Made by a program: the position numbers and the translations under genes. A stretch of 18,245 nucleotides of DNA from assembly GCA_014379815.1 (NCBI GenBank), contig JACMLA010000779.1:1-18245 (forward strand). Reading direction: 5' to 3'. Every line of letters starts with the position of its first letter. The stretch's first letter is position 1. The stretch is from Bryobacteraceae bacterium (lineage in GTDB: Bacteria > Acidobacteriota > Terriglobia > Bryobacterales > Bryobacteraceae). The notes under the pieces were generated by a model. The model was given only the letters and a program-made list of their open reading frames with translations. It searched no databases and was not told the origin of the DNA. Shown here piece by piece: positions 1-17,618 of this stretch.

Positions 1-483
1 CCGGTTTAGCACTTTATATCGAATGCCGGTCACCGGATCCGGGTATGTTTTATCGAAGGCAGAAGGCGACCAGTCGATCGTTGGATTATCGTGCCGGTCG
101 TATGAGGTTGCAGACCACGGATAGGGTCTGGCCTGTGTGGAACCCAGTGTGGGCAATCCAGTACGGAACTGCCTGGTTGTTCCGCAAGCCGAGACAAAAT
201 AATCCGTGTCCGCGTAGAGTACGAGATTGCCTCGTTCATGGCCTACTGTAATGACGCGGGTGCCATCCTGCCAGATAATGGTGTCCGGGCGGGAGGTGTC
301 GGGGGAATTTGTCGCGTCAGGATGTTCGGGACCTGTCTCAGATCCTTCGCGCAGATTTACGGTGCACTCGCCATCAGCCCCGCGGACGTACAAGCGGGCC
401 TGAGTTGCAGTCGCTTCGATGTCAATAGAAACCTCTGCGGTCAAAGGTAATAAGAAAGCTAATAAGATCAGTATTCGTTTCAT
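1..483 (-). CDS. Secreted Fn3-like domain protein, truncated by the left edge (N-terminal 161 residues)
   Basis: The frame is open from an ATG at 483 to the window edge with no stop, so the C-terminus is missing. Residues 1-16 form a clear Sec signal peptide (KR, then a leucine-rich core ending LTAEV). The mature part reads like an immunoglobulin/fibronectin-III type beta domain: strands around 22-45, a conserved-looking GECTV at 38-42, then ADTDYFVSACG (91-101) and QFRTG (105-109), the usual 'L..dTdY.v..CG...G.F.TG' ending of such domains. Cys40 and Cys100 could form a disulfide. Proteins of this style are common in Acidobacteria and lack a known biochemical role; export and binding or adhesion are inferences. 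The SD is weak (AAGAAG nearby), but a small ORF with a strong SD ends 11 nt upstream, so translation may be coupled. Existence and secretion are well supported, function is not. Confidence 0.75.
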   Translation of the reverse strand, partial: MKRILILLAFLLPLTAEVSIDIEATATQARLYVRGADGECTVNLREGSETGPEHPDATNSPDTSRPDTIIWQDGTRVITVGHERGNLVLYADTDYFVSACGTTRQFRTGLPTLGSTQARPYPWSATSYDRHDNPTIDWSPSAFDKTYPDPVTGIRYKVLNR

Positions 484-494
484 AAGTGCACTTC

Positions 495-578
495 TTAAAG
501 GAGATTCACAGGCTCCGCACAGCCGTTTACGCCAGACCTGCTGGTACCGTAACCGAACTCTTTAGCACCTCGTATCAT
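495..578 (-). CDS. Candidate 27-residue small ORF or leader peptide
   Basis: An ATG at 578 is preceded by GGAGG (591-587) at an ideal 8-nt spacing. It opens a 27-codon frame starting MIRGAKEFGYG and ending in TAA, 11 nt before the ATG of the secreted protein downstream on the same strand. There is no signal peptide or hydrophobic segment; the peptide is basic-polar with one Cys. I recognise no family. It may be a leader peptide that couples or controls translation of the next gene, a small protein, or a chance frame. The strong, well-placed SD is the main evidence. Confidence 0.4.
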   Translation of the reverse strand: MIRGAKEFGYGTSRSGVNGCAEPVNLL

Positions 579-702
579 CCTTGAATCCTCCTGCTTGTTT
601 TTGGGACCGGAAACTGCTCGAAAGTGGGTTCATTCACCTCGAACGAGCCGTCTTCGACGACCGTCAAAAGTTAGCATCCTGTTCCAAGCTTTTATTGAAA
701 AT

Positions 703-772
703 TGAGCCGCCCGCTCAGAGTTAATTGCTTTGTAGTGAGTAAAATATTTATTTTCTGTGCGCGTCAACGCGC
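703..772 (-). terminator. Possible weak terminator of the GAF gene (two short hairpins)
   Basis: On the minus strand, four bases after the GAF stop, a GCGCG-TTGA-CGCGC hairpin (772-759) occurs, followed by an A/T-rich stretch. Further on, TGAGC-GGGCG-GCTCA (717-703) is followed by ATTTTC. Both stems are only 5 bp and neither has a good U-tract, so this is a tentative call based on position. Confidence 0.3.
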
Positions 773-776
773 GATT

Positions 777-1295
777 TCAGCGCTGCTGATCGGTGTGGAA
801 AATCTGGAGCAGGCGAGTTTCCAGCAAGTTGACGGTGAGAGTACCAAAGTCCCTAAGATTGAGCTGGTCTTGTTCGTCAAAGGCCGTTCTCGGGCTGGTA
901 TCGATGATGCAGAAGGTGCCCAGAGCGTACTTATCTTTGGAAAGCAGAGGGATTCCGGCGTAAAACCGGATGCCAGGCGCGCCGGTAACCAGCCTATTGC
1001 CGGAAAAGCGATGGTCGCGCGTAGCATCGAGTACCGTAAACACGTCACTGTGCCCGATAGCGACAGAGCAAAAAGATATGTCCCGGGTTGTCTCCGTAAC
1101 AGCAACTCCGTAGTGCGATTTAAACCACTGGCGGCACTCGTCCACCAGACTGACAAGGCAAATCGGAACCTGAAAAAACAGTGCGCCAAGGCGTGTCAAG
1201 CAGTCGAAGGCCTCCTCTTCCGGGGTATCGAGAATCTGCAAATCATGCAGGGCTGTGAGGCGACGTCTTTCCTGATCGTCCGATTCAGGGAGCAT
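777..1295 (-). CDS. Stand-alone GAF domain protein (172 aa)
   Basis: Residues about 8-160 match the GAF module usually found at the N-terminus of acidobacterial and proteobacterial histidine kinases and GGDEF proteins: RRLTALHDLQILDTPEEEAFD, VPICLVSLVDECRQWFKSHYG, RDISFCSVAIG, then GIRFYAGIPLLSKDKYALGTFCIID. GAF domains bind small ligands or act as redox or light sensors; the ligand cannot be read from sequence. Here no kinase, GGDEF or HTH module follows: the frame stops about 12 residues after the GAF domain, so it would have to act through a partner or be a remnant of a longer sensor. It is cytoplasmic (no signal or TM). ATG at 1295 has GGGAG about 10 nt upstream. It is divergent from the hydrolase gene with 69 bp between starts, so the two may share a control region. 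Confidence 0.85.
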   Translation of the reverse strand: MLPESDDQERRRLTALHDLQILDTPEEEAFDCLTRLGALFFQVPICLVSLVDECRQWFKSHYGVAVTETTRDISFCSVAIGHSDVFTVLDATRDHRFSGNRLVTGAPGIRFYAGIPLLSKDKYALGTFCIIDTSPRTAFDEQDQLNLRDFGTLTVNLLETRLLQIFHTDQQR

Positions 1296-1364
1296 TCCTT
1301 ATCTTCTCCCACCAGTCAGACGTTGGCGACGAGTCCTGAACCACCTGGGCCATACTCGGATCAC

Positions 1365-2161
1365 ATGACAAATTTCAGCAGGCAGTTATTCTTTCTGGCT
1401 TTGGTGTGTTCCGTTTCAGTAAGTGGTCAGGATTGGGCCCGGACGAAAGTGGAGAAATCCCCGAGGCATCGGGAATGGGTGACGGTAACGCACGACGGCC
1501 GATCGGTGGAGGCATTTGTCGCCTATCCGGAACGAAAAGACAAAGCGCCCGTCATTCTTGTAATCCACGAGATCTTCGGACTCACCGACTGGGTAGAGAA
1601 TGTCACCGATGAATTCGCAGAAGCCGGATACATAGCGATTGCTCCGGACCTGTTGTCGGGGATGGCTCCTGGTGGCGGCCGTACGAAGGACTTCCCGCAA
1701 GGTACCGTCGGCCCTGCCATCCAGAAACTGGATCCCAACCAGATCACGGCCGATTTGAACGCCGTTGCGGACTACGGTCTGAAACTCCCTGCCGCGCAAA
1801 AGAAGTTGTATGTCACAGGTTTCTGCTGGGGCGGAGGGCAGACATTCCGATTCTCAACAAACCGGACAGATCTCGCCGCTGCGCTGGTCTTTTATGGCTC
1901 GCCGCAAGGAAAAGAGGCCATGGTCAAGATTTCGGCACAGTCTATGGATTCTACGGCGGCAACGATGCCCGAATCAATGCCACGATCCCCCAAACCACCG
2001 AAGACATGAAAGCTCTCGATAAGCGTTATGAACCGGTAACGTATGAAGGTGCGGGGCACGGATTCATGCGCGCCGGAGAAGCCCCGGAGGCAAGCGAAGC
2101 GAACGTGAAAGCTCGCGCGGAAGCCTGGAAGAGGCTCACGCAGGTAGCTCCTGTCCGATAA
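1365..2161 (+). pseudogene. Secreted dienelactone hydrolase family protein, frameshifted
   Basis: From ATG 1365 a signal peptide (residues 1-21, ending VSVSGQ) leads into an alpha/beta-hydrolase of the dienelactone hydrolase family (COG0412). HEIFG (68-72, with the family's conserved Glu) and the nucleophile elbow GFCWGGG (Cys154) are intact. After residue 191 the frame runs into unrelated sequence and stops at 2009. Shifting frame at about 1938-1940, as if one C of 'CC' were lost, restores the family sequence without a stop to TAA 2159-2161. This gives a 265-residue protein with VYGFYGGNDARI (Asp201) and GAGHGFMR (His232), completing the Cys-Asp-His triad. The unrepaired 214-residue product lacks two triad residues and should be inactive. 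The downstream part is undamaged, so the lesion is recent or a sequencing error. Such enzymes hydrolyse lactones or esters; the substrate is unknown. The larger frame upstream of 1365 is antisense to the GAF gene and was not used. Confidence 0.85.
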
Positions 2162-2187
2162 TCTCGCGCTACTCTCTCGCGCTACTC
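2162..2187 (+). repeat. 13-bp perfect tandem duplication after the hydrolase stop
   Basis: The unit TCTCGCGCTACTC occurs twice back to back (2162-2174 and 2175-2187). It begins at the base after the TAA stop and ends 9 nt before the uvrA GTG start, so it lies in the uvrA leader. It looks like replication slippage. Confidence 0.9.
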
Positions 2188-2196
2188 TTAGATTGA

Positions 2197-4974
2197 GTGG
2201 AAGATTTCCTGTCGATCCGCGGTGCGCGGGTCCACAACCTGCAAAACATCTCTGTCGACCTCCCGCATAACCAGCTGACTGTCGTAACCGGAGTATCGGG
2301 CTCGGGTAAGTCGTCGCTTGTGTTTGACACGATCTACGCCGAGGGACAGCGACGCTATGTCGAGTCGCTGTCGTCGTATGCCCGACAGTTTCTGGAGCGA
2401 ATGGAGAGGCCGGACGTAGACGAGATTACCGGAATTGCTCCTCCGATTGCGATCAAGCAGAAGAACACGACCCGCAATCCGCGTTCCACCGTTGCGACTG
2501 CGACCGAGTTGTACGATTTTTTCCGGCTGCTCTACGCCCGTATGGGCAAGACTTACTGTCCCAACGATGGCAGCCTGGTTTTGCGGGACACTGTCGATCA
2601 AATTGCCGCGAGGATGCTGGAGGAGCCGGAAGGTTCGAGGTGGTATGCATTGTTTCCCGCAGTTAGTCCGGGACGAGCGGCTGGGGAGATCCGCGACCAT
2701 CTGTTCACGCTTCGGAGCAAAGGATTCAACCGCCTCTTTCAGAATGGTCAGCTGTTTGAGTTTTCTACTCCTGAATCCCTGCTGGAGATCGATTTCACCC
2801 GGCCCCTGTTCGTTCTGGCGGACCGCCTTTCCATTGCACCGGATCAACACTCGCGAATTGTAGACACGGTGGAGGTTTGTTTTCGGGAATCGGGCGAAGT
2901 GATCTTTGAGCAGGCGGGCTCGGATCCGCTGCGTCAGATTCTGTTTAATGAGAAATTCGCTTGCAAGCTATGCGGCAAGCAGTTCAGTCAGCCCGAACCG
3001 ATTCTGTTTTCCTTTAACAACCCGATCGGCGCGTGTCCGCGATGCCAGGGATTTGGAAACACGATCGACTATGACATGGACCTGGTGATTCCGGACACGG
3101 CGCTTTCGCTCGAGCACGGCGCTGTGGATCCATGGACCAAGCCGCAGCACGAATGGGCGTGGCAACTCTTCAAGTCCGAGAACAAAGGCAACGTGCGTTT
3201 CGACGTGCCTTTCTGCGAACTCAACGAAAAGGAGCGCCTGCGGGTTGTGAAGGCCGTCCGTGAGTACTTTGCCGACGTCGAAAGCAAAAAGTATAAAGTC
3301 CACGTACGCGTCTTTATGAGCCGGTACCGGGGTTATGCGGAGTGCCCGGACTGTCTTGGATCGCGCCTTCGTCCCGAAGCCTTGTACGTAAAGGTAGGCG
3401 GAAAAAACATAGCCGAACTGGCGAAGCTGAATGTCGCCGCCGCTCGCGAATTTTGCGATGGACTGGAGCTGACTCCCGAAGAACAGGGCATCGCAGACAA
3501 GATCCAGATCGAAGTACGCCAGAGGCTGAAATTCCTGAACGACGTAGGGTTGCACTACCTGACGCTGGACCGTTTGTCCGCCACTCTGTCAGGGGGTGAG
3601 GCCCAGAGGATCCAGCTGGCAACATGCCTCGGATCCCGGCTTGTCGGGGCGACGTACGTTCTCGACGAACCTTCGATTGGTCTTCACTCGCGCGACACCG
3701 AACGACTCATCCGCATCCTTTGCGAACTCCGGGATATCGGCAACACGATCGTAGTTGTGGAGCACGATCCGGACGTCATGCGTGCGGCGGATTACATAGT
3801 CGATCTCGGCCCTGGTGCCGGAGCACTCGGCGGGAAGATTCTGTTTTCAGGCACCTACGCGGAACTTCTCCAGGACGGCTCAGCTTCTCTGACCTCCAGA
3901 TATCTGAAGGGTGAGCAGCAGGTGGCTTCCCTGCCGAAACGCCGCAAAGTGCATCCTAAGCGCACTCTCAAGGTGATTGGCGCCCGGGCTCATAACCTGA
4001 AGAATGTGGATGTGGAGATTCCGCTCGACATGATGGTGGCAATCACTGGCGTGTCGGGGTCAGGCAAATCGAGCCTTGTGCATCAGGTCATCTACAAGGC
4101 TTTAAGCGGCCAGCTGGGTAAGGATAAAGTACCTGCAAGCGAGGATGCGGCCGAGAAGTTGTTATGCAAACGGATCGAACGGACTGAGTTGCTGACCGAC
4201 GTTTGTCTGGTGGATCAGTCTCCCATCGGACGGACGCCCCGGTCGAATCCCGTCACGTACATAAAGGCTTTCGACCTCATCCGCGAAGCATTTGCGACGA
4301 CCACGGAAGCCGAACGGCGCAACTTCCCCGCAGGTCACTTCTCTTTCAACATCCCGGGTGGGCGCTGTGAAGTGTGTCAGGGCGACGGCACGGTAACGGT
4401 GGAAATGCAATTCCTGGCGGACGTGGAACTGATCTGTGAGGAGTGCAAAGGTACGCGATTCAAGAGCAGCGTACTGGAAGTGAAGTACAACCTCCTGAAC
4501 ATCCACGAAGTTTTACAGCTGACGGTCCAGGAAGCTATCGGTTTCTTCCACGGCATACCGCGGCTGGTGGCTAAGCTGAAGGTCCTCCACGAAGTTGGGC
4601 TCGGCTACCTGAAGTTAGGTCAGAGCGCGACCACGCTCTCCGGTGGAGAAGCCCAAAGGGTGAAACTCGCAGGGCACTTATCCCAGGCCACGTGCAAGAA
4701 CACACTGTTCATCTTCGATGAGCCGACCACAGGATTACACTTTGACGACATCGCCCGACTGCTCGATGCCTTTCAAAGATTGATCGCCAACGGCGGCAGT
4801 CTGCTGATCATCGAACATAACCTCGATGTCATCAAGAGTGCTGACTGGATTATTGACCTTGGGCCCGAAGGTGGCTCAGGTGGAGGGCGTATTGTCGCAA
4901 CCGGGACGCCGGAACAAGTTGCCAAAACAGAAGGTTCGTGGACAGGGCACTTTTTAAAGCCGCTGTTACAATGA
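2197..4974 (+). CDS. uvrA: Excinuclease ABC subunit A (UvrA), 925 aa
   Basis: UvrA is the damage-sensing ATPase of nucleotide excision repair; as a dimer it loads UvrB on lesions. Both ABC modules are complete: Walker [10 protein letters not shown] at 32-40, signature LSGGEAQR near 463 with Walker [12 protein letters not shown], second Walker A near 617, second LSGGEAQR near 813 with [11 protein letters not shown]. Zinc modules are present as CKLC(20 residues)CPRC near 255-282 and CEVC(19 residues)CEEC near 724-749. The UvrB-interaction/insertion region after YCPNDG (about 120-250) is present, which separates it from the shorter UvrA2 paralogues. The length is normal. The start is GTG: the codon just before it is an in-frame TGA, so no earlier start is possible, yet no real SD is visible. 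The product could be a second UvrA copy of the cell; only the rest of the genome would tell. purS follows after 10 nt. Confidence 0.95.
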
Positions 4975-4984
4975 GGCGGTTCCC

Positions 4985-5227
4985 ATGAAAGCCCGCGTAT
5001 TTGTCAGCTTCAAAAGAACGGTCCTGGATCCGCAGGGTCAGGCTGTTAAGAAGGCACTAAATGCTCATGGCCATCCCGCTGTTTCAGAAGTGCGGCAAGG
5101 AAAGTTCTTCGAAATCGAAATGGTTTCTGAGGGCCGGGAGCAGGTACTAGCTGAGTTGGATACTCTCGCCAGAGAAGTACTGGTAAACCCTGTCATCGAA
5201 GAGTACCGAATCGAAATTCCGGAGTAG
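4985..5227 (+). CDS. purS: Phosphoribosylformylglycinamidine synthase subunit PurS (80 aa)
   Basis: PurS is the small bridging subunit of the three-part FGAM synthase (PurS, PurQ, PurL), which converts FGAR to FGAM with glutamine and ATP in purine synthesis. The sequence fits the family: KARVFVSFKRTVLDPQGQAV at the start, GHPAVSEVRQGKFFEIEM in the middle, LAREVLVNPVIEEYRIE at the end, and the usual length near 80 residues. GAGG overlaps the uvrA stop and lies a few bases before the ATG, so the two genes are probably cotranscribed. Unlike the common purS-purQ-purL order, no purQ or purL follows; a secreted nuclease gene does. The pathway partners must lie elsewhere. Confidence 0.95.
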   Translation: MKARVFVSFKRTVLDPQGQAVKKALNAHGHPAVSEVRQGKFFEIEMVSEGREQVLAELDTLAREVLVNPVIEEYRIEIPE

Positions 5228-5308
5228 TTTTTTACCTGTTATTCATCGATTATTGACCTGTTGCGCCTCACGTTCTGATGGAATGGAGAGCTGCGAGTCG
5301 ATTCCCAG

Positions 5309-8296
5309 ATGAAACTAAATACAATAATGCGGACCATGCTCGGCGCACTTGTGGCCCTGAGCGCCATCTTCGGTCAACAGTCCAATCCAGCAGTCGTGAT
5401 CAGTCAGGTCTACGGTGGAGGCGGAAATTCGGGAGCCCCCCTGACGAACGATTACGTTGAGCTCTTTAACCGCAGCGGCGCGGCTGTCAACCTGTCCGGC
5501 TTCTCAGTTCAGTACACAAGTGCCACCGGTACTGGTCTCTTCGGAGCTGTGACCACGCTCTCGGGAACGATACCGGTTGGCGGCTACTACCTGGTTCAGA
5601 TGTCCGGGGGTACCAATGGCATTAGCCTTCCGACGCCGGATGCTACGGGGACTGCCAGCATGGCGGCGGGCTCGGGCAAGGTAGTTCTGGCCAGCACGAC
5701 CTCCGGTTTGGGTTGCAATGGCGGGAGCACCCCTTGTTCGGCGGCGCAGCAGGCGCAAATCATCGATCTGGTTGGATATGGAGCTGCAAACTTCTTCGAA
5801 GGCACCGGAGCTGCTCCTCAGCTGTCGAATACAACGGCCGCGTTTCGGGCAGGCGGAGGTTGCACCGATACTAACGACAACAGCGCGAACTTTACGTCAG
5901 GCGCTCCCGCTCCCCGCAACAGTGCCACGACACTGAACCCCTGTGCAGGCGGATCGACGAATCCGACCATCAGTGGGGCAGCCAATCCGTCGACTGTAGC
6001 GCCGGGCGGCAACACCACGATCAGTGGCACTTTGACGCCGGGAACTGGTCCCGCCTCGGTGAGTTTAGCGGTTGCTTGCAATCTCACACCGATCGGCGGT
6101 GGCGCGGCGACAGCGGCAACGGTCAACGGAACTGCTTATACCCTTGCGACCGCTGTGGCTGCTGCCACGACTGCGGGCTCCAAGACGATCGTATGCACGG
6201 TAACGGACAATACAAATCGGACAGGCACCGTCGACGTGGCATTGGCCGTCACGGGTGTGGTTTCTTCCTGCGGTTCACCCGCGACACTCATCGGCTCCAT
6301 ACAGGGTACCGGAGCGTTCAGTCCCCTCAGCGGGAGCACCGTTACGATCGAAGGCGTAGTGACCGGCGATTTCCAGACGACGTCTGGTCTGAACGGCTTC
6401 TTCGTTCAGGACGCCGGCGATGGCGACGAGGCAAGCTCCGACGGGGTCTTCATCAGCGAGGCAAACGGACCCGCAGGTGCGGTGACGGCAGGTCAGAGGG
6501 TTCGCATCGACGGTACAGTTGCCGAGGTTTTCAGCCAGACGGTTATCCGCAACATTACAGCCCAGTCAGTCTGCTCTTCCGGGAACTCGGTCCAGCCCGT
6601 GGACGTCACGCTCCCGGTTTCCAGCAGCACATTTCTTGAGCGTTACGAAGGCATGCTGATCCGGTTCCCGCAGCAGCTCTTCGTCACCGATAACTTCAAT
6701 CTTGGGCGCTTCAACGAAGTCGGTCTGAGTGTCGGCAACCGGCTCTTCAATCCGACGCAGGTCACATTGCCCGGCGCTTCTGCTCTGGCGCTGCAGACCT
6801 TAAACGATCGCTCACGGATCGTGCTCGATGATGGAAGCAATCGGACCTACGCGTCACTCCTTCCAGCGGAGACGTATCCTCTCGATGGCGGTGGACTCAG
6901 TGCTGCCAATTCACTCCGGCTCGGCGATCGCGTCAATGTGAACGCGGAGGGCGTCTACACTCCCCTGACCGGTGTTCTTGGCTTTGACTTCAGCGTGTTC
7001 CGTGTCCACCCGACAACTGCGGTAAACTTCAGTCCCTCCGACAACCCACGGCCTTTGACTCCTCCGGCTATCTCGGGCCGGGTGAAGGTTGCTTTCGGAA
7101 ACGTCCTGAACTATTTCACGACGTTCACGAATGTCAATCCAAATGCCCGCGGGGCGGACAATGAGACCGAGTTTGCCCGTCAGCGAGCGAAAATCATCAA
7201 CGCATTTCTGGCGATGGATCCCGCAGTTCTGGGGATCAGCGAACTGGAAAACAACGCAAACGCCATCGCAGATCTGGTGAACGGCCTGAACGCCAGCAAT
7301 CCTGGGAAGTTCGCGTTCATCAACACAGGCACTGTGGGCACTGACGCCATCCGCAACGCAATTATCTACCAGCCAGCTCTGGTACAGCCAATCGGAACGT
7401 TCGCGGTGTTTGACAGCTCCGTCGATCCCCGTGCGCTGACGCTGCGGAACCGACCAACGATTGCGCAGACGTTCCGCCTGCTCTCCGGCAGCAAACCGCT
7501 GGCGCAGCATTTCACATTTGTCGTGAAGCACCTGAAGTCGAAAGGAAGCGCATGTGCATCGACTTCACCCAGCGATCCGGACATCAACGATGGCCAGGAT
7601 AACTGCAATCTGTCGCGTGTGAGCCACGCCCGCGCCGTTCTGGACTGGCTCCTCAGCAATCCGACTGGCGATCCCACTCCGGCGGGTGACCGACGCGTTT
7701 TGATTGTTGGCGACCTGAACTCGTATCTGATGGAAGATCCCATCAAGGCGCTCACCGATCCGACTTTCAGCAAGCCACCCTCGGCTGTGTTCCCAGGCGG
7801 GCTGGCGGCGAGCACACGAGCTAATTTTGTCAATCTGGCGGACCGGCTGATCGGTGCCAACAACTACTCTTATCTGTTTCAGGGCCAGTCCGGCACGCTT
7901 GATTATGCGCTGGCGAATCCGCCTCTGTTCCGCTCGGTCAGCAGTGTTGCTGAGTGGCACATCAACGCGGACGAGCCAACAGTATTCGATTACAATTCGG
8001 ACTTTGGCGGAAACGGAAACGCGGCTGCGTCGATTCAGAAGAGCGCCAGTCAGCTAGCCGCTTATGTAACCCCAGATCCTTTCCGGACTGCCGACCATGA
8101 TCCGATCCTGATCGGCTTCAATCCTCTTTGCGGCGATGTGGATGACGATGGCGACGTGGACGCGGCGGACGCCGCCGCCATCCGCAACGCAATCGGCCGG
8201 TCGCCAGTGAATCGTCGCTACGACTTCGATCTCGACGGCCAGATAACGCTAAACGATTTCCGTCTGTTTGCCGCTTGCGCAGCGCAGGCCCGCTAA
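5309..8296 (+). CDS. Secreted ExeM/NucH-like nuclease with lamin-tail and C-terminal dockerin domains (995 aa)
   Basis: Domains in order: signal peptide (1-22, LGALVALSAIFGQ); lamin-tail domain (about 28-150: VVISQVYGGGGNSG, NDYVELFNRSGAAVNLSGF); a T/G/A-rich Ig-like stretch (about 210-310); an OB-like region typical of ExeM/NucH nucleases (about 315-580: TIEGVVTGDFQ, GFFVQDAGDGD); an endonuclease/exonuclease/phosphatase domain (about 590-930) with NVLNYF, ISELENN (metal-binding Glu near 643), VKHLKSKG, VGDLNSY (near 799), GTLDYAL and ADHDPILIGF (catalytic HD near 928); then a dockerin (about 940-992). Both dockerin repeats keep the calcium loop D-x-D-x-D-G-x-V/I-x-x-x-D (DVDDDGDVDAAD and DFDLDGQITLND). 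Predicted role: degradation of extracellular DNA for phosphate or nucleosides, with the dockerin docking the enzyme to a cohesin partner. The next gene, 13 nt on, has a cohesin-like domain. ATG 5309 has no good SD; an ATG at 5327 would also keep the signal peptide. Confidence 0.9.
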   Translation: MKLNTIMRTMLGALVALSAIFGQQSNPAVVISQVYGGGGNSGAPLTNDYVELFNRSGAAVNLSGFSVQYTSATGTGLFGAVTTLSGTIPVGGYYLVQMSGGTNGISLPTPDATGTASMAAGSGKVVLASTTSGLGCNGGSTPCSAAQQAQIIDLVGYGAANFFEGTGAAPQLSNTTAAFRAGGGCTDTNDNSANFTSGAPAPRNSATTLNPCAGGSTNPTISGAANPSTVAPGGNTTISGTLTPGTGPASVSLAVACNLTPIGGGAATAATVNGTAYTLATAVAAATTAGSKTIVCTVTDNTNRTGTVDVALAVTGVVSSCGSPATLIGSIQGTGAFSPLSGSTVTIEGVVTGDFQTTSGLNGFFVQDAGDGDEASSDGVFISEANGPAGAVTAGQRVRIDGTVAEVFSQTVIRNITAQSVCSSGNSVQPVDVTLPVSSSTFLERYEGMLIRFPQQLFVTDNFNLGRFNEVGLSVGNRLFNPTQVTLPGASALALQTLNDRSRIVLDDGSNRTYASLLPAETYPLDGGGLSAANSLRLGDRVNVNAEGVYTPLTGVLGFDFSVFRVHPTTAVNFSPSDNPRPLTPPAISGRVKVAFGNVLNYFTTFTNVNPNARGADNETEFARQRAKIINAFLAMDPAVLGISELENNANAIADLVNGLNASNPGKFAFINTGTVGTDAIRNAIIYQPALVQPIGTFAVFDSSVDPRALTLRNRPTIAQTFRLLSGSKPLAQHFTFVVKHLKSKGSACASTSPSDPDINDGQDNCNLSRVSHARAVLDWLLSNPTGDPTPAGDRRVLIVGDLNSYLMEDPIKALTDPTFSKPPSAVFPGGLAASTRANFVNLADRLIGANNYSYLFQGQSGTLDYALANPPLFRSVSSVAEWHINADEPTVFDYNSDFGGNGNAAASIQKSASQLAAYVTPDPFRTADHDPILIGFNPLCGDVDDDGDVDAADAAAIRNAIGRSPVNRRYDFDLDGQITLNDFRLFAACAAQAR

Positions 8297-8309
8297 TCAG
8301 GAACCACTT

Positions 8310-8894
8310 ATGAAGCACACCATACTTGTTAACCACACAATACTTGCACTTACTCTACTCGCGATCGGGCTGCCAGCAACGGCAGCCACAATTACTTTGG
8401 TTCCATCAGTACTGAATCCGTCAACCGGTCAGAACTTCTCGGTGAATGTTGTCGCCAACGATAACGGGACCGATGAGCTTGTAGCCTTCGGTTTCAATGT
8501 CCTGACGTCCTCTGCCGGCTCGGCATCGTTTCTTGGAGCTCTGTTGAATCCGTTGTTCACGGGAATTGAAGTTCCAGGCACGACCGTGGCAGCACTCACG
8601 GATGGCTTTAGCAACGCCGTCGGAAGCACGGTCACGCTGGCGACACTGCAGTTCCTCGCTGGCCCCGATAGCGGACCACTGACGATCTCAATCTTTTCAG
8701 ATCTGAATAACCCCAACGAGGGACTCTTCGGGCTGGATTCCACGTTCGCGTCTTTCGTTCAGACCACGAATGCTTCGGTCGATTTACAAGTGGTGGAGTC
8801 GCCAACAATACCGGAGCCGGGCACATTATCGCTGCTGGCGATCGCAAGTGCCGGCCTGCTGGTGTTCGCCCGCTCTAACCGCACTCGGCACTAG
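8310..8894 (+). CDS. PEP-CTERM protein with cohesin-like domain (194 aa)
   Basis: ATG 8310 follows AGGA at about 7 nt. A signal peptide (1-26, ending LPATAA) leads to a single beta-rich domain of about 135 residues (27-162) that follows the cohesin pattern: a first strand ITLVPSVLNPSTGQNFSVNVVA, then ELVAFGFNVL, VTLATLQFLA and a closing NASVDLQVV. The C-terminus is a textbook PEP-CTERM sorting signal: IPEPGT (167-172), a hydrophobic helix (173-186) and a basic tail RSNRTRH. Such proteins are processed by exosortase and placed at the cell surface or in exopolysaccharide. The upstream gene encodes a dockerin-tailed nuclease and is probably on the same transcript, so this may be its surface anchor. 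The PEP-CTERM call is secure; the cohesin call comes from pattern recognition only. Confidence 0.85.
   Translation: MKHTILVNHTILALTLLAIGLPATAATITLVPSVLNPSTGQNFSVNVVANDNGTDELVAFGFNVLTSSAGSASFLGALLNPLFTGIEVPGTTVAALTDGFSNAVGSTVTLATLQFLAGPDSGPLTISIFSDLNNPNEGLFGLDSTFASFVQTTNASVDLQVVESPTIPEPGTLSLLAIASAGLLVFARSNRTRH
8316..8346 (+). repeat. In-frame 18-nt imperfect duplication in the signal peptide
   Basis: CACACCATACTTG (8316-8328) recurs as CACACAATACTTG (8334-8346) with one mismatch and an 18-nt period. It encodes the doubled KHTILV/NHTILA in the n- and h-regions of the PEP-CTERM protein's signal peptide. Confidence 0.7.
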
Positions 8895-8916
8895 TCTTCG
8901 GCCCTAGTCTTCGGCC
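8891..8916. repeat. 13-bp perfect tandem duplication at two convergent stop codons
   Basis: CTAGTCTTCGGCC occurs twice (8891-8903, 8904-8916) followed by a third CTA (8917-8919). The TAG inside copy 1 is the stop of the PEP-CTERM gene; the CTA after copy 2 is the stop of the antiporter gene on the other strand. The duplication is the whole spacer between the convergent genes, and no terminator hairpin is visible there. Confidence 0.9.
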
Positions 8917-10005
8917 CTAATGTCCGGCGACGCCAGGCGCGTCCGGCAGGAAGAAAAATACTATCCCGATGATGATATAGACCACAAGCAATTGCGCGCC
9001 TTCTAACCAGTTGGACTCGCCATCCCCGGTAATCTGGCCTGCCACTGCCACCGAGAGCGCGACGGCCAAAACTTCTGCAGGCGAGAACACGAGGTCCATC
9101 GGCTTCGGCCCGATAAAGCGGCTCGCTAGAACCAGCAGCGGCGCGACGAAAAGGGCAATCTGTATGCTGCTGCCGACTGCAATCGACAGGGAAAGATCCA
9201 TCCTGTTTTTACGCGCCACGACAATCGCCGTGCTGTGTTCGGCCGCATTGCCTACGATTGCGACAACGATCACACCGACGAAGATGCTGGACATACCGAA
9301 CTGCTCGGCAGTCTGTTCCACAGACCCGACCAGCATCTCGCTAATCCACGCGATGAGAGCTGTGGCACCGGCGAGGACGGCCACGGCTTTGGTCGTGCTC
9401 CACTGCCCATGCCCGTCATGTTGTTCTGCGTGGGCACCTGCTGTTTCAGTCATGAAGAATTCTGTGTGCGTACGCAGGGTGAACCACAAACTAAGCGCGT
9501 AGGTCAGCAGCAGAACAATCGAAATATCGAGGCTGAGATCGTTTTCCAGAAGGATGTTAGCTGGCTGGCTGAGGTAATGAAACGCAGCCGGCAAGATCAA
9601 TGCAATCGCAGCAAGAGTCAGCGTCGTCGCCTGCGTTCTTGCACCTTTCGCGTTAAATTGCTGCGTTTCGAACTTCAGACCTCCCGCAAGAATGGAGGCT
9701 CCTAGCACCAGCAGCAGGTTGCCGATGATCGATCCTGTCAGCGATGCCTTAACGACGTCATAGAGGCCCTTGTTTAGCGCAACCAGGGCAATGATGAGCT
9801 CAGCGGCGTTGCCGAAGGTCGCGTTTAGCAGTCCTCCGATACCTTCGCCGGTCTTTGCGGCCAGATGCTCGGTTGCAGTTCCCATCCAGCCGGCAAGCGG
9901 GATGATTGCGACCGAGGCCGCTAAGAAAATCAGGGCGTGACTTTCGGGTCGGAAGTAGTGCAAACCCGCGGCAATGGGCACAAAAATCAGGAGCCAGTTC
10001 AGCAT
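8917..10005 (-). CDS. Calcium/proton antiporter, CaCA/CAX family (362 aa)
   Basis: An inner-membrane exchanger that exports Ca2+ in return for protons. The two inverted alpha repeats of the CAX family are clear: [22 protein letters not shown] (around 53-74) and [20 protein letters not shown] (about 251-270), each with the GNAAE core that binds the cation. About 11 hydrophobic helices are separated by an acidic/His-rich loop (about 187-201, [10 protein letters not shown]), as usual for the family. It is the last gene of an overlapping minus-strand operon: its ATG at 10005 precedes the stop of the Hsp70-like gene (ATGCTGA), a 7-nt overlap pointing to coupled translation. Its length is normal. 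Substrate choice (Ca2+ or another cation) is inferred from the family. Confidence 0.93.
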
Positions 10006-11591
10006 ATCTGTTCACTCGACGCAGCTTCGGGTCGCCTGCGGTGACGGCGTCCAGGGCGCACAGGCTCGGACTTGGCCGCCCATTTCCCAAGACGATAGAC
10101 GCGTGAGTAATTCGAAGTCAGGTTACCGATGCGGACCTCGACGTTTCCTGCTGCATCGACGGAGTAACTCTCTTCAACCAGCTGTTCCGCAATGCCTCGC
10201 ATATGAGCAACGGGTACGTCCTGCAGATCGGCCTCATTGCTAAGGGAAGGATCGAAGGGGAAACGGATTTCGTCCCATACACTCAGGTCGCCTGTGGGCA
10301 GATTGTCGCCCGTAGTATGGGTGCACTCGAGATATCGAAAATGACCGATGTTGTGAACGGGAACGTAGCGACGGCGGATCCCTATGCTCGATTCTCCGCG
10401 TGAAGGCAGCGGAGTGCCTTTGGGAAACAGGGGATCAAAGACGACATGGCGTCCATTTTCCCACTCGCGCCAGACACCGAAGTGGCGATGGAAAATCTCG
10501 CGAAGCACATAGCCTGCCTGCTCGTCGGCCTGGATTGCGAGACCGATCGCGGTGGCGCTGCGGGCATACGCTGACCTCCTGACACGACGTCCGAAGACCT
10601 CTTTCAGAATGCGGGACACCACCGGGAGTTCACTGCCTCCTCCTGTGACGTACAGCGAGTCGACCTGGCCTTCCTCGGAACCAAACATTTGCAGGAGATG
10701 CTCGGTCAAGCTGATACTTTTCTCGACCAGAGGACGGCAGCGTTCGTAGTAGTCACCTGCCGGGATCACGATTTGCGTCAGGTCCTCACGAACCTGCGAG
10801 AGATCCACGATGATGCGGCGGGTATTTGGGTGAAGCGCTTCCTTCTTGCTGCGACACTCCTCATGCAGCCGGAAGAGCTCGCTTTCAGTAAGATCTTCCG
10901 AGCTTAGGTTTGCTGCTTCGAGGGCAAAGGAGGCGAGCAGCTCGTCGAAGTCGTCGCCCCCCAGATCGGCTGCTCCTTCGGTCGCCACAACGGTGTGCAA
11001 CCGGTCGTCGATTCGTACGAGAGAGACATCGAAAGTGCCTCCGCCGAGGTCGTACACGAGAAGTTGCTCCGCTGCGCCGCCGTCCCGACTGCGGTGCCCG
11101 TACTCAATACTGGCGGCCGACGGTTCGTTCAGCAGTCCTAATACGTGAAAGCCGGCGCGCTGAAAAGCCTCGACTGTGAGGAAACGCTGGTTACTGTTGG
11201 CGCTGGCAGGAACGCCGAGCATGATCTCCAGAGTCTCGTGCGTCCGGGCTGGGATGCTCGAACCTTTTACCAGAGCGCTGCGCAGAGACGACGCCATCCC
11301 GGTCAACACATCGAGCAGCGGAATCTGCTGGTTTTCTATTTCGAGATAGGAGCAGGGCCCGGCATTTTCCAGCGAACGCTTGATGGACCGGATCACCGTC
11401 CAGCCAGCCTCGAACTGAGCGGTGTACGCTTCCCATCCGTAAAGAAGCTTCGCGTCCCGCACCGCGATCAGGGGTGGAAACCATTCCCGGCTTGTGCCTT
11501 CAGGATCTTCGAAAGTGACTACGGGATAATTGCCGCGGTCTACGGCCGCAACAACGACCCGTGTCGTTCCCCAATCAATACCCAGCCTCAT
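9999..11591 (-). CDS. Divergent Hsp70-like ATPase (530 aa)
   Basis: The N-terminal 355 residues form an actin/Hsp70-type ATPase: phosphate-1 LGIDWGTTR (3-11), connect-1-like NEPSAASIEYG (155-165), phosphate-2 VYDLGGGTFDVSL (179-191), and adenosine loop LYVTGGGSELPVV (313-325). The remaining 175 residues only loosely resemble the DnaK substrate-binding beta domain (FGVWREWENGRHVVFDPLFPKGTPLP), with no helical lid and no DnaK-type EEVD or disordered tail; instead there is a basic stretch RRHRRRP near the end. It is shorter than DnaK (about 640) and is not the housekeeping chaperone. Its start codon overlaps the stop of the upstream permease gene (ATGA) and its stop overlaps the antiporter start, so the three proteins are made together. 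A role in folding or regulating membrane partners is a guess. Confidence 0.88.
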   Translation of the reverse strand: MRLGIDWGTTRVVVAAVDRGNYPVVTFEDPEGTSREWFPPLIAVRDAKLLYGWEAYTAQFEAGWTVIRSIKRSLENAGPCSYLEIENQQIPLLDVLTGMASSLRSALVKGSSIPARTHETLEIMLGVPASANSNQRFLTVEAFQRAGFHVLGLLNEPSAASIEYGHRSRDGGAAEQLLVYDLGGGTFDVSLVRIDDRLHTVVATEGAADLGGDDFDELLASFALEAANLSSEDLTESELFRLHEECRSKKEALHPNTRRIIVDLSQVREDLTQIVIPAGDYYERCRPLVEKSISLTEHLLQMFGSEEGQVDSLYVTGGGSELPVVSRILKEVFGRRVRRSAYARSATAIGLAIQADEQAGYVLREIFHRHFGVWREWENGRHVVFDPLFPKGTPLPSRGESSIGIRRRYVPVHNIGHFRYLECTHTTGDNLPTGDLSVWDEIRFPFDPSLSNEADLQDVPVAHMRGIAEQLVEESYSVDAAGNVEVRIGNLTSNYSRVYRLGKWAAKSEPVRPGRRHRRRPEAASSEQIC

Positions 11592-12727
11592 ACGCCCTTA
11601 GAATACCGTTCGACTTCGGGGCTGGCCATAACAGAGGAGGCCGGAGACCCACGGTATCCAGTTGTGCCGGAACCTGTTTGCTCTTCCTTGCCTGCGCCAA
11701 ACTCTCTGTCTCCCAAAACATCTTCGATGTACAGCATGCGTACCAGCACCATGGCAGTCACGGCGAGTGGTGTTGCGAGTGCGAGTCCCGCGAAGCCGAA
11801 CAGAACACCGAGTACCAGCTGGGCAGCGATCGTAAGCGCCGGTGGGATTGCAACGGCCCTTTGCTGAATCATTGGAGTGATGAAATTGCCTTCCAGCGTC
11901 TGGGCGGAAAAATAGAGAGCCACCACCCACAGCGATGCTTCGTAACCATGGGTGAAGGCAAGCAGAACGGCGGGAGCGCCGGCTATCAGCGGTCCGATGT
12001 TGGGTATGAAGTTAAAGAGAGCAGCCAGCAGAGTCAGCGCGAAGGCGAGTGGGATTCCAAGGATGAACAAGCCGCTACCTGTAAGCACCCCGATGACGAC
12101 CATGGCGAAGAGCTGGGCCAGCATCCACGCTCGCAGGGTCTTGCTCAGCTCGGACATAACTTCACTGGCGCGTGGGCGGCGGGAGATGGGCAGCAGTCGT
12201 ACCAAACCCTCCTTATAGGTTTTCGGGTCTGAGGCAAAGAACAGGGAGAGCACAAGGATCAGAAAGATGTTGGCGAGGACACCAAGAGAAGACGATAGGA
12301 ACCCGGTGACCCTTTGCACGGTCTGGCCCGATCCGGATAGGCCCGGCAGAGCGTCCGGGGTGCCTGCCATCAGACTTCTTAGCAGAGGGAAATTTGAGAG
12401 CTGACCCTGTAACTGCGTCCAGGCGGCAGGTATGGTCTTTGCGAGCTGCTGGACCTGCCTCGAAATCTCCGGTGCCAGAGACCAGATGCCGACAACCAGA
12501 GCAACGAGAAGCAGCAACAGCGCGACCAGAAGCGACCAGCGCTCAGGGACTGGCGTATAACGCGCCAGACCGTCAGCCATCATCCTGAACAGGAGGGAAA
12601 GCAGGATGCTTCCAAAGACGAGAAGGATCACGTCGGAAGCGACCCAAAAGAACGCGAGCAGAAGAATAGTCCCGGCGACGATTCCGGTCGTACTCCAGAC
12701 GCGGTGATGCCAGGTGTGTTCCTGCAT
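11588..12727 (-). CDS. AI-2E family transporter / PerM-like permease (379 aa)
   Basis: The protein has the layout of the AI-2E family (PF01594): two or three N-terminal helices (13-50), another at 64-84, a soluble middle segment (85-140), then a hydrophobic C-terminal half with the family signatures NFIPNIGPLIAGAPAVLLAF (239-258) and TLEGNFITPMIQQRAVAIPP (278-297), and GFAGLALATPLAV near 311-323. Members include export systems for AI-2 and other solutes, and some act in Na+/H+ exchange; the cargo here is unknown. The open frame can begin at a TTG at 12841 or a GTG at 12751. ATG 12727 was chosen because the first 38 residues of the long form are polar and family-untypical; neither start has a strong SD. 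It is the first gene of an overlapping operon with the Hsp70-like and antiporter genes. Confidence 0.9.
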   Translation of the reverse strand: MQEHTWHHRVWSTTGIVAGTILLLAFFWVASDVILLVFGSILLSLLFRMMADGLARYTPVPERWSLLVALLLLLVALVVGIWSLAPEISRQVQQLAKTIPAAWTQLQGQLSNFPLLRSLMAGTPDALPGLSGSGQTVQRVTGFLSSSLGVLANIFLILVLSLFFASDPKTYKEGLVRLLPISRRPRASEVMSELSKTLRAWMLAQLFAMVVIGVLTGSGLFILGIPLAFALTLLAALFNFIPNIGPLIAGAPAVLLAFTHGYEASLWVVALYFSAQTLEGNFITPMIQQRAVAIPPALTIAAQLVLGVLFGFAGLALATPLAVTAMVLVRMLYIEDVLGDREFGAGKEEQTGSGTTGYRGSPASSVMASPEVERYSKGV

Positions 12728-12846
12728 TTCGCCGGATTGGTGTGTGCTCACGGACTGTGGACCTGTGCCGGGCGGTTCGTGTTTCGTTCCGTCTTCTAAC
12801 CGTCTGGAATCACACGGAACCCCAGTTATAGTAAGCCACAAATGCG

Positions 12847-12876
12847 AAGCCCTGCAAACCGGAGTTTGCAGGGCTT
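12847..12876. other. Perfect 13-bp hairpin upstream of the permease gene
   Basis: Positions 12847-12859 (AAGCCCTGCAAAC) pair perfectly with 12864-12876 (GTTTGCAGGGCTT) across a CGGA loop. Read on the plus strand it is followed by TAATTCG, on the minus strand by CGCATTTG, so neither side has a proper U-tract. It could be a weak terminator for transcripts from the ChbG-like gene, an attenuating leader structure, or a REP-like element. Confidence 0.6.
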
Positions 12877-12972
12877 TAATTCGCTAGTATTCCGCTTCTC
12901 GCGCGGAGCGGCCGGTCCTCATGAACTTCGGCTCGCCACTGGAACGAGGCCTGGAATGTCAGAATAGTCGAC

Positions 12973-13029
12973 TCAGTAGTCGGCCACCTCGCGCGTGAGT
13001 TCAGGTCTACTATGACTACCAATTTCCAT
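12973..13029 (-). CDS. Candidate 18-residue small ORF with very strong SD
   Basis: ATG at 13029 starts MEIGSHSRPELTREVADY and ends in TGA at 12973. Upstream, 13049-13032 reads AAAGGAGGTGGTCCAGTC on the minus strand, pairing along its whole length with the conserved 16S 3' tail if two G-U pairs are allowed. The GGAGG core is 12 nt from the ATG, a little longer than ideal. After the TGA the same frame stays open for 17 more codons. No family was recognised. The SD is much more convincing than the peptide itself. Confidence 0.35.
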   Translation of the reverse strand: MEIGSHSRPELTREVADY

Positions 13030-13031
13030 TA

Positions 13032-13049
13032 GACTGGACCACCTCCTTT
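13032..13049 (-). promoter_or_regulatory. Extended Shine-Dalgarno sequence (18-nt match to anti-SD region)
   Basis: The minus strand reads AAAGGAGGTGGTCCAGTC. The exact complement of the typical bacterial 16S 3' end is AAAGGAGGTGATCCAGCC; the two differences (A to G, C to T) both give G-U wobbles. It ends 2 nt before an ATG. Confidence 0.7.
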
Positions 13050-13070
13050 TTCAGTGATGCCTACATATTC

Positions 13071-13913
13071 TCATGGCACTGTTACCCTGTCAACAGCTTT
13101 GCGGACCGGTTGAAAAGCACTTACGGTTTGTTCGAAAGTGAGCAGTTCGATGTTGCGGCGTTTGATGATTTCGCGCACTTCCGGACTCGTCCACAGCCTG
13201 ACAACCTCCGCGCGGCGAACCGCTACATCTTCATTCCCGGGGTGGCCGATCGCTCTCGATTCGGGGCTGTCCACCGACGGATGCTCAATGAAGAACCAGT
13301 CGCCAGCGGTTAGCTTTGTGAGCGCGTCTGCGAACGACTGTCCCGGGGCGAGGCGCATGGGCCGGATGCTCCCGCTGGCACCGAGAAGCGGTAGTCCATA
13401 CTCGCGGGCCAGTTTTTCTGTCAGCGACCGCAACTCGGGTGTAGCCACCGCGGTTCCCATATGCGGCCACAGCCACCCGACGTTTACGATCTCTTTCCTG
13501 GCGGTCTCAATCTGCTTTCGTAATTCCTTTTCTACATCTGCGATCGGCGCATTCAGGCTTAGGAATCCTTTCGTGGTCGAGGGCAGGAAGCCGTTCTCGT
13601 CGCCGAGCGAAGCGAGGCCGGTCATCGGGCGCCACTTGATCCCAGCCCATTCCGCTGTCAGATCGAGGTGCACCCCAACGCCGATTGCGGGATTGTCTTT
13701 CAATCGGCGCGCCATGTCTGGAAACCAGGGACCGGCAACGATCACGTTGGCGCAGCCCATGACCCCGTTGCGATGAGCCTCGATAGTTCCCAGGTTGAAC
13801 GACAGCGCGGCTCCGCCGTCGTCTCCACAGATCAGAAGCCGGATCCGTTCGCTGGCTTGCAGGGAAGACGTTGCGAGCAAAGTGGTGAGTAGAAAAGAAG
13901 CGTACACAGGCAC
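13071..13913 (-). CDS. Secreted ChbG/YdjC-like carbohydrate deacetylase homologue with altered active site (280 aa)
   Basis: A signal peptide (1-20, FLLTTLLATSSLQA) precedes a YdjC/ChbG-type domain (about 24-270). The family removes acetyl groups from small sugars such as chitobiose in a metal-dependent way. Recognisable parts are LLICGDDGGAALSFNLGTIEAHRNG (Asp31/Asp32), IGVGVHLDLT (His82) and PHMGTAVATPEL (His151), which could still give the Asp-His-His metal site. The segment before His151 usually reads (T/S)-H-x-D-x-H in this family, but here it is G-W-L-W-P-H (146-151), so a conserved His and Asp are both Trp. Activity is therefore doubtful. The start is GTG at 13913 (or GTG 13907), with TAA three codons upstream and no clear SD. 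It is divergent from the MFS gene with 23 bp between starts. Confidence 0.8.
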   Translation of the reverse strand: MPVYASFLLTTLLATSSLQASERIRLLICGDDGGAALSFNLGTIEAHRNGVMGCANVIVAGPWFPDMARRLKDNPAIGVGVHLDLTAEWAGIKWRPMTGLASLGDENGFLPSTTKGFLSLNAPIADVEKELRKQIETARKEIVNVGWLWPHMGTAVATPELRSLTEKLAREYGLPLLGASGSIRPMRLAPGQSFADALTKLTAGDWFFIEHPSVDSPESRAIGHPGNEDVAVRRAEVVRLWTSPEVREIIKRRNIELLTFEQTVSAFQPVRKAVDRVTVP

Positions 13914-13936
13914 GGCAGTATCTTATTCCAGAGTCC
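13914..13936. promoter_or_regulatory. Very short divergent intergenic region
   Basis: Only 23 bp separate the GTG of the ChbG-like gene and the ATG of the MFS gene. There is no room for two separate promoters, so at least one must lie inside the opposite gene, and transcription of the two is likely to interfere or be co-regulated. Confidence 0.4.
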
Positions 13937-15115
13937 ATGCAGAATAAAGAGATGACCACAGCCGTGGCGGCTCCTCCGCGCAGTAAGTTGCCGGTAGTGC
14001 TTGCGGGTTTCTGCGCGTTTCTTAGCGTGTTCGCCACACAGCCTCTTTTGCCGGAATTTATCCGGATCTTCGAGGCTTCGAAGGTCGCGGTCAGCCTGAC
14101 TGTGACCGCAGCCACTCTGGGTGTCGCACTTGCCGCTCCCTTTATTGGAACGGTAGCGGACAGACTGGGGCGCAAACGCGTCATCGTGTGGTCGGCGTGG
14201 TTGCTGGCTGTGACGACGATGGCAGCGGCAACCGCCAATAGCCTGAACACACTGATCTTTTGGAGGCTGCTCGAGGGCCTTGTGACTCCCGGCGTCTTCG
14301 CGATTACGGTGGCATACATTCAGGAAGAGTGGGCGGGTGCGGGGACGGGCTCTGCGACAGCCGCTTATGTATCGGGAACGGTTCTTGGCGGATTCGCAAG
14401 CAGGCTGATCTCGGGCATGGTGGCGGCGCAGTTTGGCTGGCAAATGTCGTTCCTGGCACTGGGTGGCGTTGGTCTGATCGGCGCGGCTATGCTTGCACGG
14501 TATCTGCCGAAGGAAACGCGCTTCGTGCGACGCGAACAGGGCACTTCCCTTCTCTCTGTCGCAGTCGACCACTTGAAGAACCGGCAGTTGCTGGGGACTT
14601 ACGTCGCTGGTTTCTGCGTTCTGTTCTCCCTGCTTGGGGCATTTACATTCATTACGTTCTATCTGGCGGCTCCGCCGTTTTCGCTTTCCTCTGGTGCGAT
14701 TGGGTCCCTGTTTGTGGTTTATCTGTTTGGGGCGATTATCACACCGAACGCCGGAAAAGTGATCGACCGGTACGGGCAGAAAATCACGATGGCGATGGCG
14801 ATCGCTTGTTGCACAGCCGGGTTGCTGCTGACGCTGAGTCACTCGCTTCCCGTGGTGGTTACCGGACTGGCTCTGGCGTGTTCGGGCGTCTTTGTGGGAC
14901 AGTCGTGCTCCAGCAGCTACATAGGCCTGGTGGCAAAACACAACAAGGCGCTGGCGGTAGGTTTGTATGTCACGTTCTATTACGTGGGCGGCAGCTTCGG
15001 TTCCTCAGTGCCAGGCTACCTGTGGGCATGGGGAGGCTGGCCTGCGTGCGTGGCCCTGTTCACGGGAGTGCAACTGATCACCGGGCTGATTACGTGGAAT
15101 CTCTGGCAACGTTAG
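13937..15115 (+). CDS. MFS transporter, YnfM-like (392 aa)
   Basis: A 12-helix major facilitator. The N-terminus FLSVFATQPLLPEF (28-41), the second helix LTVTAATLGVALAAPFIG and MFS motif A GTVADRLGRKRV (71-82) fit the YnfM/arabinose-efflux-like branch of proton-linked transporters. A hydrophilic loop (KETRFVRREQGTSL) separates the two six-helix halves. Length is normal. Seven bases after its stop comes the glucuronate-isomerase-like gene, so the two are surely cotranscribed and the transporter may handle a uronate or related sugar acid, although most YnfM relatives are annotated as exporters. ATG 13937 was taken; ATG 13952 (MTTAVAA) is possible. Neither has a clear SD. Confidence 0.9.
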   Translation: MQNKEMTTAVAAPPRSKLPVVLAGFCAFLSVFATQPLLPEFIRIFEASKVAVSLTVTAATLGVALAAPFIGTVADRLGRKRVIVWSAWLLAVTTMAAATANSLNTLIFWRLLEGLVTPGVFAITVAYIQEEWAGAGTGSATAAYVSGTVLGGFASRLISGMVAAQFGWQMSFLALGGVGLIGAAMLARYLPKETRFVRREQGTSLLSVAVDHLKNRQLLGTYVAGFCVLFSLLGAFTFITFYLAAPPFSLSSGAIGSLFVVYLFGAIITPNAGKVIDRYGQKITMAMAIACCTAGLLLTLSHSLPVVVTGLALACSGVFVGQSCSSSYIGLVAKHNKALAVGLYVTFYYVGGSFGSSVPGYLWAWGGWPACVALFTGVQLITGLITWNLWQR

Positions 15116-15122
15116 AACCCTC

Positions 15123-17371: not shown

Positions 17372-17618
17372 AAGTCTCCTTGCTGAACACACGTGTCCCG
17401 TTTCGATAAAGCGCTTGCTTTACCACTGCGACGAAGCTGGTCCGGTCACGGGCCAAAAACGTGTACTCTGTTTGTCTACTAACAGCAGTACCACGATTTA
17501 GCGATTTTCCAGTTAGGCTAAAGTACTAAAACGATCAGGAATTTGTTCTGTGAAGTATGTCGGCTAACTAAGTAAAACGAGGCGTGTGTTTAGGGATTTC
17601 GAGAAGGGTGATTCGATG
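17372..17618. other. Intergenic region upstream of the desaturase
   Basis: 247 bp between the alcohol dehydrogenase stop and the desaturase ATG, both on the minus strand, and visibly more A/T-rich than its surroundings. It contains two inverted repeats (described separately) and no convincing ORF. No clear -35/-10 pair could be fixed by eye. Confidence 0.5.
17407..17422. promoter_or_regulatory. Palindrome, possible operator for the desaturase
   Basis: TAAAGC-GCTT-GCTTTA is a perfect 6-bp inverted repeat about 36 nt upstream of the desaturase ATG. A second inverted repeat lies further up (TTTAGC 17497-17502 and GCTAAA 17517-17522, 14-nt spacer). The size and place fit a binding site of a dimeric repressor, but no regulator gene is adjacent. 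Confidence 0.35.

Follow-up and report, generated by a model that had tools for sequence, protein, structure and literature searches.

The 18,245-nt stretch of the Bryobacteraceae bacterium assembly GCA_014379815.1 analysed here (contig JACMLA010000779.1, positions 1 to 18,245; hereafter, the window) carries two adjacent genes, the first of which encodes a secreted nuclease that ends in a dockerin, and the second a small PEP-CTERM protein, named P2, with one cohesin-like domain. The features of both are listed in Table 1. An initial annotation, made from the letters alone, had described them as a two-gene module that holds a DNase on the cell surface or in exopolysaccharide.

Table 1. Features of the nuclease gene and the P2 gene (window coordinates).
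Feature	Position	Strand	Length or residues	Basis
Gene 1, secreted ExeM/NucH-family endonuclease	5309..8296	+	995 aa	Pfam and NCBIfam
Putative signal peptide of the nuclease	5309..5374	+	approximately residues 1–22	By eye from the sequence
Lamin tail domain (LTD) of the nuclease	5375..5695	+	residues 23–129	Pfam PF00932, 48.9 bits
ExeM/NucH region of the nuclease	6347..8122	+	residues 347–938	NCBIfam NF033681
Catalytic Exo_endo_phos domain of the nuclease	7166..7960	+	residues 620–884	Pfam PF03372, 32 bits
Type I dockerin of the nuclease	8132..8263	+	residues 942–985	Pfam PF00404
Dockerin calcium loop 1, DVDDDGDVDAAD	8135..8170	+	residues 943–954	
Dockerin calcium loop 2, DFDLDGQITLND	8222..8257	+	residues 972–983	
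AGGAA, ribosome-binding-like sequence for gene 2	8299..8303	+		Read from the sequence
Gene 2 (P2), PEP-CTERM protein with one cohesin-like domain	8310..8894	+	194 aa	
Cohesin-like beta-sandwich of P2	8376..8801	+	residues 23–164	
PEP-CTERM sorting signal of P2	8805..8873	+	residues 166–188	PF07589, TIGR02595

The nuclease scores 521.7 bits with the family model NF033681 (ExeM_NucH_DNase; cut-off, 300), and its closest named relatives stem from a Bryobacteraceae metagenome-assembled genome (MAG; 60% identity) and an Acidobacteria MAG (56%). The complete two-repeat dockerin read by eye was confirmed: PF00404 (Dockerin_1) matches with 25.7 bits (cut-off, 22.9), and the full ligand pattern is present in both calcium loops. 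In an alignment of the window nuclease with 13 relatives (A1), D943, D946, D947, G948, V950 and D954 are invariant in loop 1, and D972, D976, G977 and D983 in loop 2. The match with the CelS dockerin (2mte/1daq) is weak (phmmer E 0.04). The 13-nt spacing between the two genes, equally noted before, is correct (8297–8309, TCAGGAACCACTT); the AGGAA motif lies six bases 5′ of the ATG at 8310, which yields the 194-aa P2, while the open reading frame (ORF) list uses a TTG at 8268 (208 aa).

P2 has a hydrophobic, signal-like N-terminus (helix 4–18 in the structure model) and, at its C-terminus, the PEP motif, hydrophobic helix and basic end of a PEP-CTERM protein. Both Pfam and NCBIfam recognise this sorting signal, narrowly over their cut-offs (PF07589, 20.9 bits against 20.7; TIGR02595, 16.7 against 16). 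In between, a jelly-roll beta-sandwich of the cohesin fold is predicted, for which the nearest structure by Z is 2vo8 and the second 2jh2. The cohesin-like domain proposed by eye is, therefore, sustained by structure prediction and fold comparison, but not by Pfam, where PEP-CTERM is the sole match and no cohesin match appears up to E 1. We term P2 cohesin-like and do not assign it to PF00963, because the sequence model of that family fails to recognise it. As a lone query, P2 retrieved no homologue except itself and no relative in the genomes, and its relatives were traced via the neighbourhood of nuclease relatives. A trimmed profile–profile comparison with cohesins of the Cellvibrio type was weak. 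When a further profile (A5) was run across the order, 219 of 257 genomes had matches; most of those listed span only the PEP-CTERM end, and no counts were taken from them.

A P2-like gene lies directly 3′ of a dockerin-tailed nuclease gene in three MAGs of the same group (L001, L002, L003), in four genomes of the same order (L086, L088, L089, L091) and in Methylomonas methanica (L029). In two gammaproteobacterial MAGs (L052, L056), such a nuclease is followed by proteins with weak, sub-cut-off Pfam cohesin matches (single-sequence E 0.04 and 0.073). The adjacency of nuclease and P2 is conserved across two phyla. We collected 94 ExeM loci and judged 78, the other 16 being dropped for short or open contig ends or for want of a profile hit: a PEP-CTERM neighbour occurs beside 11 of the 14 dockerin-tailed nucleases (the window included) and beside 16 of the 64 other ExeM nucleases, the latter count standing against 4 of 320 other genes (L001–L080). 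The expectation that the two genes adjoin in relatives was borne out, well above the rate for other genes of the dockerin loci (1 of 75, see below). Dockerin-like tails are undercounted by PF00404, which has no match in G164, G258 and G260 despite such tails on their nucleases; one further dockerin-like tail, at L057, was missed by the script motif and has no PEP-CTERM neighbour. Exosortase (PF09721) was found in 12 of 13 tested genomes with ExeM loci, the exception being G259, the MAG of L052.

The pairing is not confined to nucleases. In the order of G003, 79 of 257 genomes have a PF00404 match, at 113 places, of which 108 were fetched, the five left out being extra matches inside two ORFs already covered. 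Those that could be judged, 81 ORFs, carry the dockerin at the C-terminus, are closed at their end and have 700 nt or more of sequence behind them. To call a PEP-CTERM neighbour, these counts relied on a rule of motif and hydrophobicity rather than on Pfam. The next same-strand ORF has signal-like and PEP-CTERM-like ends in 38 of the 81, as compared to 1 of 75 other genes of the same loci and, where the dockerin is internal, 1 of 17 judged ORFs; Fisher p-values overstate this difference because genomes of one order are related, not independent. Cohesin-core profiles recognise 33 of the 38 neighbours (E < 0.01), of which no fewer than six belong to the alignments behind those profiles, and five have no such match (L204, L210, L220, L241, L250). 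At L191 (G133:C653), the sole background case, the dockerin gene is followed by one ORF and then by the PEP-CTERM gene; its partner may sit one gene away.

With P2 added to 39 neighbours (A7), 20 of the 40 partners match Pfam Cohesin and 30 match PEP-CTERM at E ≤ 0.1, P2 being absent from the former 20. The joint profile of all 40 retrieves cellulosomal cohesins in the PDB, with a best E of 5.5e-13. The 39 dockerin proteins are diverse: they include Exo_endo_phos (6), He_PIG (11), a single FGE-sulfatase and a single caspase-like domain, as far as seen in long proteins clipped by the fetched flank. Among genomes sampled from the order to which the Methylomonas genome belongs (dockerin in 60 of 201; 30 loci delivered), a PEP-CTERM neighbour was found at 10 of 19 judged loci, and among those sampled from the order of G260 (27 of 293; 30 loci delivered), at 3 of 13; the neighbour at L307, one of these three, does not look like a cohesin. 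These 13 neighbours comprise 4 matches to Pfam Cohesin and 8 to PEP-CTERM (E ≤ 0.1). Of the nuclease-holding module first proposed, the predicted cohesin fold and the adjacency in relatives have stood, but its restriction to a nuclease was too narrow, since the same pairing accompanies many non-nuclease secreted proteins; this suggests that such pairs may be a widely used means of keeping secreted proteins at the cell surface.

Not every C-terminal dockerin is paired. Where a Cys immediately precedes the first loop, 0 of 28 dockerins have a neighbour; where it does not, 38 of 53 do. This split was chosen post hoc, after the data had been seen; an earlier motif split (37/65 against 1/16) was too loose and was replaced by the Cys rule. 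The 15 neighbourless dockerins without the Cys include L173 (the same place as L134, G181:C70), where a cohesin-like PEP-CTERM gene adjoins the dockerin gene in convergent orientation, and L223 and L229, where the partners are probably frame-broken. Dockerins of the Cys subtype end long secreted proteins (L232, L235, L249, L255, L260 (G013) and others). An unusual multi-dockerin protein is encoded at L207 (G182:C99), where one 652-aa ORF has five dockerin matches.

Distances between the dockerin tails and distances between the partner domains are correlated over 39 pairs (Mantel, r 0.80; 0 of 5000 shuffles reach r). The correlation is r 0.73 in a less redundant set of 31 pairs, and r 0.785 over 32 pairs once marked nuclease pairs are removed; the marking, by regular expression, probably mislabels G062_L206 and misses G225_L238. 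The nearest neighbour is identical in both distance trees for 13 of 39 pairs, against 1.04 expected by shuffling. Such co-variation is compatible with matched pairs, and linked inheritance alone would raise the correlation too.

On balance, we favour the reading that the nuclease and P2 form a dedicated tethering pair, which probably holds a DNase near the cell in trans. Both proteins would be secreted, the C-terminal dockerin of the nuclease folding around two calcium ions, and exosortase would recognise the PEP-CTERM tail and sort P2 to the cell surface or into exopolysaccharide. There, the single cohesin-like domain of P2 would capture the dockerin, and retention of the nuclease by P2 is the most likely outcome. 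Binding, one-to-one specificity and surface location of the pair are inferred; calcium dependence is expected because the dockerin has calcium loops. The enzyme would presumably serve in DNA scavenging or in the remodelling of biofilm DNA. Many other secreted proteins of related bacteria would use the same arrangement of a dockerin and a neighbouring cohesin.

The strongest competing explanation is that the two proteins are co-expressed but unbound, as members of a shared surface or exopolysaccharide regulon in which the beta-sandwich of P2 binds a sugar or another protein and the dockerin is a calcium-stabilised cap. The 16 non-dockerin nucleases with PEP-CTERM neighbours speak for it, as such a neighbourhood could reflect shared localisation; because of them, we also rejected the notion that only dockerin nucleases have PEP-CTERM neighbours. 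These nucleases have tails that resemble those of RTX/type-I-secretion proteins, or tails of a third class (Duganella type). Apart from L054, which looks spurious, there are 15 loci with a non-cohesin PEP-CTERM protein directly downstream (L006, L009, L010, L011, L016, L018, L021, L022, L024, L025, L030, L031, L032, L033, L045), whose products have no cohesin match (HMM E above 0.2) and no Pfam domain besides PEP-CTERM; the Duganella partner (L018) is NCBIfam NF038129. All 4 genomes tested that carry the non-dockerin version encode exosortase (PF09721). Among genomes sampled from the Duganella order (29 of 349 with a close nuclease), 7 of 21 judged loci have a PEP-CTERM neighbour, L340 among them being the L018 locus again.

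Against mere co-expression, the type of partner tracks the type of tail. When the partners were clustered without their ends, no family was common to two tail classes, although taxonomy is confounded with class: the partners of six dockerin tails fall into two cohesin-like families, those of the third class into a single one (8/8) and those of the RTX-like class into three, plus the doubtful L054, while L344 stands alone. The 15 non-cohesin partners listed above make up four families, which follow the tail class. The complete lack of neighbours beside Cys-preceded C-terminal dockerins points the same way, within the limits of that post hoc split, and we regard the unbound alternative as unlikely. 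More tentatively, and with clearly less confidence than in the nuclease–P2 pair itself, we propose that ExeM/NucH nucleases and many secreted proteins of exosortase bacteria could be displayed in trans, each C-terminal tail fitting a PEP-CTERM receptor of its own that is encoded next to it, and the two being exchanged together in evolution. Dockerin and cohesin would then be the version with an interaction that is already understood, and the RTX/type-I-secretion-like and third, beta-proteobacterial, tails would be further, unrecognised pairs.

It is less probable still that the dockerin of the nuclease attaches to any of several cohesins in the cell, in a loose, cellulosome-like network rather than in private pairs. 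Several genomes carry at least two dockerin/PEP-CTERM pairs, and G157 carries four; moreover, clostridial type I cohesin–dockerin pairs cross-react within species. Yet the paired cohesins within one genome differ strongly (distances of 0.60–0.95), and every counted pair has its own neighbouring partner gene (no search was made for multi-cohesin scaffoldins). That P2 would be a regulator of the enzyme with a cohesin-like fold, either an inhibitor or a holdase in the periplasm that blocks nuclease activity until export, would fit the harm that secreted DNases can do to their producer before export, but is very improbable, as the same partner type lies beside proteins without a nuclease domain and the PEP-CTERM tail points to surface sorting.

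The pair resembles a cellulosome in having a dockerin on the enzyme, a cohesin on the anchoring side and calcium loops. It differs in its one cohesin-like domain, in the nuclease taking the place of a polysaccharidase, in the arrangement as neighbouring gene pairs, and in anchoring, by a PEP-CTERM signal instead of an S-layer or LPXTG attachment. P2 is not a scaffoldin of the cellulosomal kind: it has one domain of approximately 140 residues and no carbohydrate-binding match (other scaffoldins were not searched for). Other counterparts are the non-cellulosomal cohesins of a Clostridium perfringens glycoside hydrolase (2vo8/2jh2) and of Archaeoglobus fulgidus (2xdh), which, like P2, are single modules outside cellulosomes. 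By their entry titles, these sit in a large enzyme or an archaeal protein, whereas P2 is small, cohesin-like almost throughout, tailed with PEP-CTERM and encoded next to a dockerin gene. Archaea with cohesin or dockerin domains are described as having no large scaffoldins (PMC9012536). Both modules are common well beyond cellulosomes, yet a paper of 2017 called the function of non-cellulosomal cohesin and dockerin proteins not known (PMC5244752). In an Acidobacteria genome survey, dockerin appears a single time, in the legend of a supplementary figure (PMC5900883).

Substrates of the PEP-CTERM/exosortase system carry a signal peptide, the PEP motif, a hydrophobic helix and a basic end (Haft et al. 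2006, PMC1569441); neither cohesin nor dockerin is mentioned there. P2 shares the latter three with the system, together with a putative signal peptide, and its sorted domain is a predicted receptor for another secreted protein. Work on methanotrophs connects the exosortase system with polysaccharide (PMC11072679). Shewanella ExeM and ExeM with a GlyGly-CTERM are of the same family as the window nuclease. Nearly all of Shewanella ExeM is reported to reside in the cytoplasmic membrane fraction, with or without its putative C-terminal anchor, and the enzyme is proposed to act on DNA near the cell (PMC6085458). The putative membrane anchor of Shewanella ExeM is its own, in cis, whereas the window nuclease ends in a dockerin and a second, PEP-CTERM, protein would do the anchoring; ExeM-like retention would then be achieved in trans, by a dockerin together with a sorted cohesin. 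Pseudoalteromonas relatives of ExeM (L067, L068, L074, L075, L080) have a C-terminal hydrophobic stretch with basic residues of their own, possibly a cis counterpart of the nuclease–P2 pair. Among open-access papers, we found none joining PEP-CTERM, dockerin and cohesin, and none joining “extracellular nuclease” and dockerin.

To our knowledge, few PEP-CTERM proteins have a known job. The conserved pair gives them, as well as cohesins and dockerins, a concrete, testable function, i.e., a surface-sorted socket for one secreted partner; gene order alone would then predict the binding partners of several dozen proteins in the counted sets. The pairs may also be a source of new orthogonal cohesin–dockerin modules for protein assembly.

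Two tandem copies of a 13-base unit, CTAGTCTTCGGCC, lie at 8891–8916 between the convergent genes, starting from the P2 stop codon. Tail-to-tail with P2, 22 nt past it, is a sodium/calcium exchanger family gene (8917–10005, reverse strand; PF01699, 143 bits); the presence of a calcium-export gene beside a calcium-dependent module may be a coincidence. A gene at 9999–11591 (reverse strand) encodes a short Hsp70-family protein of 530 aa, with PF00012 at residues 123–358 and an extra C-terminal region.

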